A stretch of DNA of 64,000 nt from Aeromicrobium tamlense. GTDB lineage: Bacteria; Actinomycetota; Actinomycetes; Propionibacteriales; Nocardioidaceae. The notes beneath the pieces are model-generated. The model was not told the DNA's origin and did no database searches. It worked only from the letters and a program-made list of their open reading frames with translations. Shown here one piece after another: positions 14,244-58,403 of this stretch; position 1 is the stretch's first letter, and each line of letters starts with the position of its first letter. The stretch spans positions 124,001 through 188,000 of the forward strand of contig NZ_JACBZN010000001.1 in the NCBI RefSeq assembly GCF_013408555.1, written 5' to 3'. Made by a program: the position numbers and the translations under genes.

Positions 14244-14758
14244 TCCGCCGACTCGTCGTGCTGCCGCCCGTGCCCGCGCTGCTGCCGCGCTACGCGAGCC
14301 TCGAGGACCCCGTGGCCGAGCTCCGCGTCTCCGCCGTCGCGGCGGTGCAGGCGATCACGCGCGGCGTCGAGGCGGTCTCGGTCGTCGGTGACGACCCCTT
14401 CGCCCCCGAGGTGGCGCGAGCCCTGCTCGACGCGGCCGGCTTCACGGGTCGGGTCGAGGACGGCGCCGAGGTGCTGCTGGTCATGGCCAACGGCACCGCG
14501 AAGCGCGGCGAGAAGGCCCCCGGTCACCTCGACGAGCGCGCGCTCGACTTCGACGACACCGTCGACCTCGCGCTGCGCTCCGGCGACGGCTCGCGGCTCG
14601 CGGCGCTGGATCCGCAGCTCGGCGCCGAGCTCTGGGCGTCGGGGATCGAGCCGCTGGTGGACCTCGGCGAACAGCTGGGCGACGGCTGGCGGGTCTCCGT
14701 CCCCTATGCCGACGCTCCCTACGGCGTCCTCTGGTGGGTCGTCGCCTGGCTCCACTGA
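14240..14758 (+). CDS. Class III extradiol dioxygenase subunit B-like protein
   Basis: 172 aa, recognised from memory as the actinobacterial family annotated as class III extradiol dioxygenase subunit B-like. The segment MANGTAKRGEKAPGHLDERA followed by FDDTVDLAL is characteristic, as is the C-terminal APYGVLWWVVAW. No classical LigB metal site is complete, so a ring-cleaving activity should not be assumed. GTG 14240 overlaps the folP2 stop by 4 nt. The TGA stop is the first base triplet of a dispersed repeat element (14756-14852). Confidence 0.72.
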   Translation: MIRRLVVLPPVPALLPRYASLEDPVAELRVSAVAAVQAITRGVEAVSVVGDDPFAPEVARALLDAAGFTGRVEDGAEVLLVMANGTAKRGEKAPGHLDERALDFDDTVDLALRSGDGSRLAALDPQLGAELWASGIEPLVDLGEQLGDGWRVSVPYADAPYGVLWWVVAWLH

Positions 14759-14852
14759 CCTCCGGTCAGCCAGATCTGTAGCGGCATCCACTGGTTCGGG
14801 CGGATCCGGCGCGAAAAGGGTGGAAAGTGCCACAGATCTCGCGCACCGGAGG
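14756..14852 (+). repeat. Dispersed palindromic repeat, copy A
   Basis: 97-bp element beginning with TGACCTCCGGTCAGC and ending CGCACCGGAGG. Its ends form an imperfect inverted repeat: about 20 of 24 positions of CCTCCGGT..AGATCTGT match the complement of the right end. A second copy lies in opposite orientation at 57486-57584, roughly 80% identical by eye over the full length. The leading TGA is the stop codon of the LigB-like gene. The right end is 20 bp before the pyrD -10 hexamer. Confidence 0.75.
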
Positions 14853-14884
14853 GGTGAGGTCGGCGGTGGCCTAGGGTGGTCGCC

Positions 14885-31682: not shown

Positions 31683-31690
31683 GTCAACGC

Positions 31691-31722
31691 GAAGGGGCCC
31701 TGCCGATCGGCAGGGCCCCTTC
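31691..31722 (+). terminator. Terminator after rpoC (32-bp perfect palindrome)
   Basis: GAAGGGGCCCTGCC at 31691-31704 and its complement at 31709-31722 around a self-complementary GATC. It could also serve the convergent acyltransferase gene. Confidence 0.92.
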
Positions 31723-31748
31723 GTCATGCCCGGGCGGAGGCGCCGGGC

Positions 31749-57485: not shown

Positions 57486-57584
57486 CCTCCGGCGCGCGAG
57501 ATGTGCAGCGCTGTCCACCCTTTTTGACGGCCGATCCACCGGAAAACGGTGGATACCGCTACAGATCTCGCTGACCGGAGGTCA
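57486..57584 (-). repeat. Dispersed palindromic repeat, copy B
   Basis: Second copy, inverted relative to copy A at 14756. Read on the minus strand it begins TGACCTCCGGTCAGCGAG and its first TGA is the stop codon of the AraC-type gene. It has an internal perfect 8-bp hairpin, ATCCACCG with CGGTGGAT (57536-57556 on the plus strand), and imperfect terminal inverted repeats. It lies between a plus-strand and a minus-strand gene, so it may act as a bidirectional terminator. Confidence 0.75.
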
Positions 57585-58403
57585 GGCGCGGGGCTCGGCG
57601 GCGAACTCGCCGGGGGTCAGGCCGGTGACCGCGCGGAAGTCGCGGCCGAAGTGCGCCTGGTCGGCGTAGCCGAGGTCGGCCGCCACGCGGGCGAGGTCGG
57701 GTCGAGGCGCGTCGCGCAACCGCTCGGCCGCCTCGTGCAGCCGGCGCCGCTGGATCAGCCACTTCGGCGAGAGTCCGATCCGGCGGGCGGTGAGCCGCTG
57801 CAGGGTGCGCTCCGTGATCGCGAACTTCTCGCAGACCTGTCGCACGCGCTGGACCTCGGGATCGCCCTCGACGTACTCGACGATCGCGTTGACCAGCAGG
57901 CCCTCCTCGTCGACGGGCAGCAGGCGCTTCAGCGACTCCTCCATCGCAGCCACGGCGGCCCGCTGCCGCTCGGGATCGTCCGGGGCTTCGCCGGCCGCGG
58001 CGCGGATGCGGGAGACGAGATTGTCGTCCCCGAGCGGCACCGCGCGGTCGGTCAGACCCTCGACGGGGCCGCCGGCCAGCGCGATGCCCGCCGCGGGCTG
58101 CAGCATCGTGCCGAGGGCCCAGCCGCTCCCACCCAGCTCGGTGGTGGACAGGCCGCTGCTCGGGCCGACCAGCCGCGCGTACTCGTGGGAGACGACGATC
58201 AGGCAGACCGGGTACTGGAGCACGCGCTGGACCGTGACGTGGCCGTCGGGCAGGGACCAGACGGGCATCCAGTACCGACGCACCACGGACGCGAGCGCGG
58301 GGGAGGGGGCGAACCGGTGGATGGGCGGCGTGTAGCCCGACGCGTCGAGCAGGTGCGCCCGCTCGGTCGGGTCGATGCGCCGGACGTCGTCTCCACCGGT
58401 CAT
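57582..58403 (-). CDS. AraC family transcriptional regulator
   Basis: 273 aa. N-terminal sensor half (IHRFAPSPALASVVRRYWMP, PGHV-like VTVQRVLQYPVCLIVVSHEY) of the type found with DUF6597 domains, and a C-terminal AraC DNA-binding domain with two helix-turn-helices (FAITERTLQRLTARRIGLSP; LARVAADLGYADQAHFGRDF). The effector is unknown. Divergent from the TIGR03086-type gene with 50 bp between, so that gene is its most likely target. The stop codon is contributed by repeat copy B. Confidence 0.88.
   Translation of the reverse strand: MTGGDDVRRIDPTERAHLLDASGYTPPIHRFAPSPALASVVRRYWMPVWSLPDGHVTVQRVLQYPVCLIVVSHEYARLVGPSSGLSTTELGGSGWALGTMLQPAAGIALAGGPVEGLTDRAVPLGDDNLVSRIRAAAGEAPDDPERQRAAVAAMEESLKRLLPVDEEGLLVNAIVEYVEGDPEVQRVRQVCEKFAITERTLQRLTARRIGLSPKWLIQRRRLHEAAERLRDAPRPDLARVAADLGYADQAHFGRDFRAVTGLTPGEFAAEPRA

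Follow-up and report, generated by a model that had tools for sequence, protein, structure and literature searches.

What system has placed two copies of one noncoding sequence in the 64,000-nucleotide stretch of the Aeromicrobium tamlense genome analyzed here (the window), and does a protein belong to it? Copies A (14756-14852, plus strand) and B (57584-57486, minus strand) lie where a preliminary description, made from the letters alone, had placed them, and they align end to end; the identity of about 80% estimated there by eye is 83% by BLAST over 97 bases (E = 4e-21). Both had been called noncoding, and no gene is called across either core, which just mechanical open reading frames overlap. 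The same description expected many copies per genome, as in dispersed REP/BIME or MITE families, and BLAST, a covariance model, and a half-site scan bear this out. BLASTN of copy A against the whole genome (G000, 3.37 Mb) returned copy B at 83% and many more places. The covariance model, built from 28 copies, matched 39 places genome-wide at E ≤ 0.1, so further copies do exist: 35 belong to the type of A and B and 4 to a 59-bp sister type, with A and B the sole matches in the window. Since the element is palindromic, most of the 39 gave matches on both strands; a weak match at L067:3097-3197 is left out of the 39, and its type-2 pair is counted under the CTCC type. No described family had been recognized, and none emerged here: tRNAs alone exceeded the Rfam gathering score in the window, weak matches to microRNA models in seven further loci fell far below the cutoff, and a 13-base core string was found in no paper. 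We therefore reject membership in an Rfam RNA family.

The outer ~24 bp had been described as imperfect inverted repeats. The inverted repeat is real, but it takes in the whole 68- to 70-bp core, a palindrome of two half-sites, and the two hairpins that flank this core are separate structures. The usual build is a hairpin, often with a TCC loop, followed by the core and then by another hairpin, whose loop is mostly GGA; the core consists of two inverted half-sites of about 23 bp, AGAT(C/G)TGTAGCGGYATCCACCGTTTT. In both window copies the first TGA is the stop codon of the neighboring gene (Table 1). The stem of the first hairpin varies between copies, and across the 28 copies both sides change in six of six pairs of each hairpin, with 71% and 84% of cells paired; the whole structure pairs at 81%, versus 36 to 48% when slid. 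The core is kept as sequence, and its variable positions are often unpaired (columns 25/86 in 16 of 28 copies). Across 70 half-sites, positions 1 to 4, 6 to 12, and 17 to 21 carry high information and positions 24 to 26 moderate information, a profile that is partly a consequence of how half-sites were picked. TAGCGG-type (type 1) half-sites gave 72 matches in G000, 70 of them forming 35 pairs, and unpaired ones do not exceed chance in this genome; as two of the 35 pairs flank a nuclease gene, 33 are solo elements. There are also 20 pairs of CTCC-type (type 2) half-sites, every one exactly 59 bp. The bases immediately before and after the 35 type-1 cores of G000 are identical in 23 cases (14 C/C, 9 G/G; C/G never), a tendency that is less clear in relatives. 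Elsewhere in the window, a strong hairpin between convergent genes at 31683-31748, GGGGCCCTGCC-GATC-GGCAGGGCCCC, looks like an ordinary terminator and contains no element.

Table 1. Parts of the two window copies and nuclease units of the same genome. Coordinates are window positions unless prefixed G000:C1.
Feature	Coordinates	Strand	Remark
Copy A left hairpin, TGACC-TCC-GGTCA	14756..14768	+	First three bases are the upstream gene's stop codon
Copy A core palindrome, 68 bp	14772..14839	+	Two inverted half-sites
Copy A left half-site, AGATCTGTAGCGGCATCCACT	14772..14792	+	1 mismatch
Copy A right half-site, inverted	14819..14839	-	2 mismatches
Copy A right hairpin, GGA loop, imperfect stem	14842..14856	+	
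Copy B left hairpin, TGACC-TCC-GGTCA	57572..57584	-	TGA is the stop of the AraC-like gene 57582-58403(-)
Copy B core palindrome, 70 bp	57499..57568	-	Two inverted half-sites
Copy B half-site, AGATCTGTAGCGGTATCCACC	57548..57568	-	0 mismatches
Copy B second half-site, inverted	57499..57519	+	1 mismatch
Copy B right hairpin, GGA loop	57482..57496	-	
Nuclease, TAGCGG type, 69-bp palindromes	G000:C1:2003726-2004643		Outside the window; type of copies A and B
Nuclease, CTCC type, 59-bp palindromes	G000:C1:791585-792638 (L257)		Gene at 791635
Third, diverged nuclease, ~53-bp palindrome at stop codon	G000:C1:3243164-3244060 (L258)		Also in G121 (L266)

The elements are closely tied to gene ends. Directly behind a stop codon sit 36 of the 39 model matches: in 23 cases the flanking genes converge and each stop codon is within -35 to +20 nt, 13 elements follow the upstream gene of a tandem pair, and none lies between divergent genes. 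The three without a nearby stop comprise one that is 39 nt off and two inside an array of three elements between ksgA-like and ispE-like genes (G000:C1:349709-350187, L024). Genes were called with a codon-position script, and names such as ksgA were assigned by eye. For comparison, the 71 intergenic gaps of the window are 6 convergent, 6 divergent, and 59 tandem, and 75 elements of related genomes are 45 convergent, 23 tandem, 3 divergent, and 4 unclassed.

Relatives share the design and use other half-sites. A kernel pattern, AGATNTG-N10-CACC ... GGTG-N10-CANATCT with free spacing of 47 to 77 bp, matched 74 stretches in 84,980 species genomes: 63 in records titled Aeromicrobium, 8 in strain LLX17, 1 in an Actinomycetes MAG, and 2 in unrelated records (52 and 71 bp), the last two probably by chance. 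At family level it occurs in 24 of 341 genomes, and the reversed pattern in none; two of the 80 elements in the fetched set lack the kernel pair. The 75 elements in related records measure 59 (32 elements), 60 (26), 69 (16), and 54 bp (1), and forms of 48 and 67 bp were seen once each, with mismatches. Core lengths thus cluster at 58 to 60 and 68 to 70 bp. The two clusters differ by one helical turn, as would suit a protein that sits on duplex DNA as a dimer. These lengths are anchored on half-sites; unanchored palindrome lengths are smeared over 49 to 76 bp because palindromes extend past the kernel. At six sites where one flank or both could be matched, the same gene end has a 68- to 69-bp core in one species and a 58- to 59-bp core in another, and copy A is among them (68 bp in G000, 58 bp in G077). 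The outer hairpins do covary, but unpaired core positions and one-turn length steps lead us to prefer recognition of duplex DNA and to reject an RNA element as the main function.

The preliminary description had suggested a search for a transposase or RAYT-type protein with matching ends. A protein with matching ends exists, a DUF559/Vsr-like nuclease rather than a known transposase or a RAYT. Among the fetched loci, 13 cases have two elements enclosing 0.3 to 2.5 kb, and 7 of the 13 enclose one gene family, DUF559/MTES_1575, with weak AbiEi_4 and Vsr matches. All seven enclosed nucleases, one of them in another genus (L036), are flanked by their own genome's half-site type or a near form. A single gene is called in each of the seven units, and the second gene sought, an AbiEii nucleotidyltransferase partner, is absent between these palindromes. 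The family occurs in at least 46 of 49 genus genomes (E ≤ 1e-10). We took 50 nuclease loci from the matches listed (30 plus a further 20, the latter picked by score and genome before their flanks were viewed). Upstream palindromes with at least 17 of 22 pairs accompany 40 of these 50 loci versus 3 of 70 window genes; on both sides the figures are 24 of 50 versus 1 of 70, and downstream alone 32 of 50 versus 8 of 70. A strong upstream palindrome is thus missing at 10 loci, and at 26 one is missing on one or both sides. Without the six loci that seeded the search profile, the counts are 35 of 44 upstream and 19 of 44 on both sides. Window genes were taken as the control because neighbor genes share the nuclease palindromes: a first downstream control of same-locus neighbors was unsuitable, with 61 of 86 ending at such palindromes (at least 16 pairs).

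Palindrome and protein also vary together. In the 40 loci with both sides reaching 15, the two palindromes of one gene agree at a median of 18 of 20 positions, versus 11 of 20 across loci, and the gene's own partner palindrome ranks first in 32. Protein similarity correlates with half-site similarity (Mantel, 44 loci, r = 0.46, 0 of 2000), mainly from pairs above 60% identity; below 60%, r is 0.20. Half-sites of the ACTTTTGG type number 18, 21, 21, and 35 in four genomes with a matching nuclease; two further genomes have 2 and 1, and the remaining 43 have 0, in a test chosen after the four nucleases with ACTTTTGG ends had been seen and in which the nucleases of the other 45 genomes were only partly typed. 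The four genomes hold 37 exact ACTTTTGG pairs, all 59 bp, and 21 of the 95 half-sites lack an exact partner. At phylum level, a homolog (E ≤ 1e-20) occurs in 28 of 119 genomes, G000 included. Like palindromes on both sides (at least 19 of 24) appear in 9 of 28 fetched foreign loci, in a scan without a null; the best case stands out, at 48 bp with 23 of 24 positions alike. Distant DUF559 genes of other Actinomycetota with matched palindromes of 43 to 65 bp on both sides are found at L307, L301, L287, L284, and L309. A different arrangement was seen at L223:285-735 (G077:C1:1389435-1389885), where a 97-amino-acid GIY-YIG-like nuclease gene, named by eye, sits between two copies of a different repeat, ..CTCGATAC..CTCGCTTCGCTCGC..ACTCGATCA; the same gene pair holds a solo palindrome in G000, and in G088 this other repeat appears at two such gene ends, clearly at L219 and in diverged form at L217. 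This is possibly a second nuclease-plus-palindrome system.

What kind of protein is enclosed can be judged from an AlphaFold2 model, which was made for the HQM.2 homolog (L190) rather than the G000 protein (mean pLDDT 86.5, 4 sequences). Residues 1 to 180 match AbiEi and residues 185 to 289 match the catalytic domain of I-Bth0305I, so the model suggests that an AbiEi-antitoxin fold is linked to a nuclease of the Vsr/I-Bth0305I-like kind. Columns invariant in all 50 sequences include two Glu, one Asp, and three His, as counted by residue type rather than mapped one by one onto the EDxHD of I-Bth0305I. dN/dS is 0.10 to 0.39 in 44 pairs above 62% identity. According to the excerpted text of PMC7319586, AbiEi binds two 23-bp inverted repeats 3 bp apart, the pair of a mycobacterial relative is 13 bp apart, and its authors suggest that the extra 10 bp may give space for a larger domain. 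Gaps of 3 or 13 bp give 49 or 59 bp, which the observed 48 and 58 to 60 bp fit; 69 bp would be the next turn, a third step absent from that paper, and we became aware of the fit only once the lengths had been established. That the spacing steps may be helical turns is our reading, not that of the authors as excerpted.

Comparison of sites between species shows that elements come and go. At 2043978, relative G121 keeps both gene ends without the element (L207), and at the site of copy B, G088 has 15 bp between stop codons (L211); such empty sites indicate gain or loss, although a number of elements are common to species. The G000 solo at 2317494 is the sole solo-versus-unit site: the same gene pair encloses a full unit in G077, G037, and G121. 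The gene before the G000 unit has neither unit nor kernel palindrome behind it in the stretch covered for G077, G037, G088, and G121 (122 bases for G121), and the gene beyond the unit differs in some relatives, so rearrangement was also involved. Ten site groups contain 40 of the 50 units. Among same-site pairs, 15 of 94 are inverted; these go back to L231, L275, and the split between L242/L270 and L269/L272. Ends of differing type can occupy one site. Shared, inverted, and mixed-type sites fit recombination between, or reentry into, palindromes.

Given the observed anatomy, copy number, 3'-end position, length clusters, nuclease association, covariation of half-site and protein, and shared, filled, and empty sites, we think it probable that the elements are paired binding sites for a DUF559-family protein whose autonomous unit is palindrome, nuclease gene, palindrome; binding, dimer, cutting, and spreading are what we infer. 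The two ~23-bp inverted half-sites, on the same helix face, would be the predicted site for a protein with an AbiEi-like DNA-binding part and a Vsr/I-Bth0305I-like nuclease. Copies A and B would be solo, nonautonomous palindromes of the type served by the TAGCGG-type nuclease of Table 1. Two nuclease subunits may bind one palindrome, bend the DNA, and cut at or near it, and repair or recombination using another copy would spread palindromes and, on occasion, the gene. If the two end palindromes recombined with each other, solos would be left or the gene inverted, and solos may be kept behind stop codons since they are harmless or favored there.

Several observations count against this explanation. 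Six of the 13 palindrome pairs enclose unrelated genes, and it leaves the two outer hairpins of the TAGCGG type unaccounted for. The lack of a target-site duplication weighs against it as well, as do the nuclease loci without strong palindromes (10 of 50 upstream, 26 of 50 on one or both sides) and the weak correlation of protein with half-site below 60% identity. The G121 unit has 58-bp palindromes, and 11 of 13 fetched G121 elements are 69 bp. G088 keeps four diverged TAGCGG-type elements, and its two nucleases among the matches listed are of other types. The single lengths of 54 and 67 bp fall off the helical steps, and many dS values, lying near 1, approach saturation. Finally, the units are mostly at old shared sites and so are not obviously mobile.

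Could the solos instead be older, independent targets into which the nuclease gene homes by cutting and by copying from an occupied locus, without spreading palindromes? The site that is solo in G000 and filled in three relatives would follow, as would inverted units at one palindromic site and a catalytic domain closest to that of a homing endonuclease. We nevertheless regard this as unlikely, for it leaves unexplained both the tens of copies of one half-site type almost only where its nuclease was found and the solos at gene ends that are empty in relatives, and the G000 unit is placed where four relatives have no palindrome. Less likely still is a host function, in which a bidirectional 3'-end element (a terminator or an insulator of transcription or supercoiling) is bound by an AbiEi-type regulator and the nuclease-side palindromes serve as operator and terminator. 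Relatives keep the genes yet have gene ends without any element, half-site types differ between species, one whole type is missing from G000 but abundant in four relatives, and the core lacks an obvious U-tract terminator form; these points outweigh the placement of 36 of the 39 matches behind convergent or tandem stops and of none between divergent genes, the covarying hairpins on both sides, and the number of sites common to species.

The short length, inverted ends, and many copies of the element resemble those of small nonautonomous MITEs, here of a conventional transposon whose terminal repeats are ~23 bp long. We consider this very improbable: no unpaired TAGCGG half-sites beyond chance are present in G000 to end a longer element, no direct repeat above shuffled flanks surrounds the 35 elements (best values lie within the shuffled maxima) and thus no target duplication was found, spacing falls into fixed classes one helical turn apart, and the enclosed gene encodes no known transposase. 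A REPIN mobilized by a RAYT (TnpA-REP) would account for extragenic palindromes and a cognate gene flanked by them, but we give it almost no credence and reject it, together with the RAYT-type partner first suggested. A search for the Y1 transposase PF01797 was negative in all 49 genus genomes (of which 37 have a completeness of at least 90% and a contamination of at most 5%) and positive in 5 of 14 control genomes, and GTAG is present in the TAGCGG half-site but not in the CTCC, ACTTTTGG, or GGAT half-sites. A phage origin was also rejected, with no kernel matches and no protein relative in viral_contigs.

The nuclease-and-palindrome unit that we favor can be compared with the closest known systems. 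Like BIMEs, which are placed behind genes, the elements are dispersed extragenic palindromes (35 type-1 and 20 type-2 pairs in G000), and as in REPtrons an enzyme gene is bordered by them (upstream in 40 of 50 loci, on both sides in 24). The excerpted text of PMC8266576 describes the REPtron enzyme gene as palindrome-bordered, usually single-copy, and housekeeping-like. Here, however, a DUF559/Vsr-like nuclease that carries an AbiEi-like part stands in place of the Y1 HUH enzyme, and recognition looks like that of duplex DNA with helical phasing, whereas REPtrons use single-stranded hairpins. The predicted catalytic domain is Vsr-like, as in the EDxHD homing endonuclease I-Bth0305I, but the DUF559 nuclease has no relative in the viral collection, is attached to an AbiEi-like domain, and has its gene between two copies of the presumed site, with tens of solo sites per genome. 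The modeled fold of residues 1 to 180 recalls the AbiEi antitoxin of type IV toxin-antitoxin systems, and the element lengths may recall its operator, in which two 23-bp inverted repeats 3 or 13 bp apart would span 49 or 59 bp; in contrast, a nuclease domain is joined on here, no toxin gene lies between the palindromes, sites occur behind genes genome-wide and not only at the protein's own promoter, and a 69-bp form exists too.

The system works like a REPtron but, as no Y1 enzyme was found, is not one; it is built from unrelated parts that are not reported together in the texts searched, and literature searches of open-license PMC text showed no report of an association between palindromes and a DUF559 nuclease. 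The palindromes look like strays from a selfish element of a kind not described before. We propose tentatively, with slightly less than even confidence, a new class of selfish DNA in which a fusion of an AbiEi-type repressor and a Vsr-fold nuclease copies its own operator palindrome genome-wide, each spacing (49, 59, or 69 bp) and half-site being matched to its nuclease. The class would be widespread in Actinomycetota, because matched palindromes (43, 48, 58, and 63 to 65 bp) accompany some distant DUF559 genes, including ones in other classes, and the REP/RAYT way of life would have evolved independently. The route by which REP-like palindromes spread is described as unsettled in the excerpted text of PMC8266576, where the enzyme studied is the Y1-type TnpA-REP. 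If an enzyme unrelated to TnpA-REP does go with the same genome pattern, that pattern would be shown to be general and a fresh testable system would be at hand. The finding would also propose a role for DUF559/AbiEi-like nucleases, which now carry names such as "protein of unknown function," and would provide a family of natural protein-DNA pairs whose recognition sequence and half-site spacing may be read from genomes.
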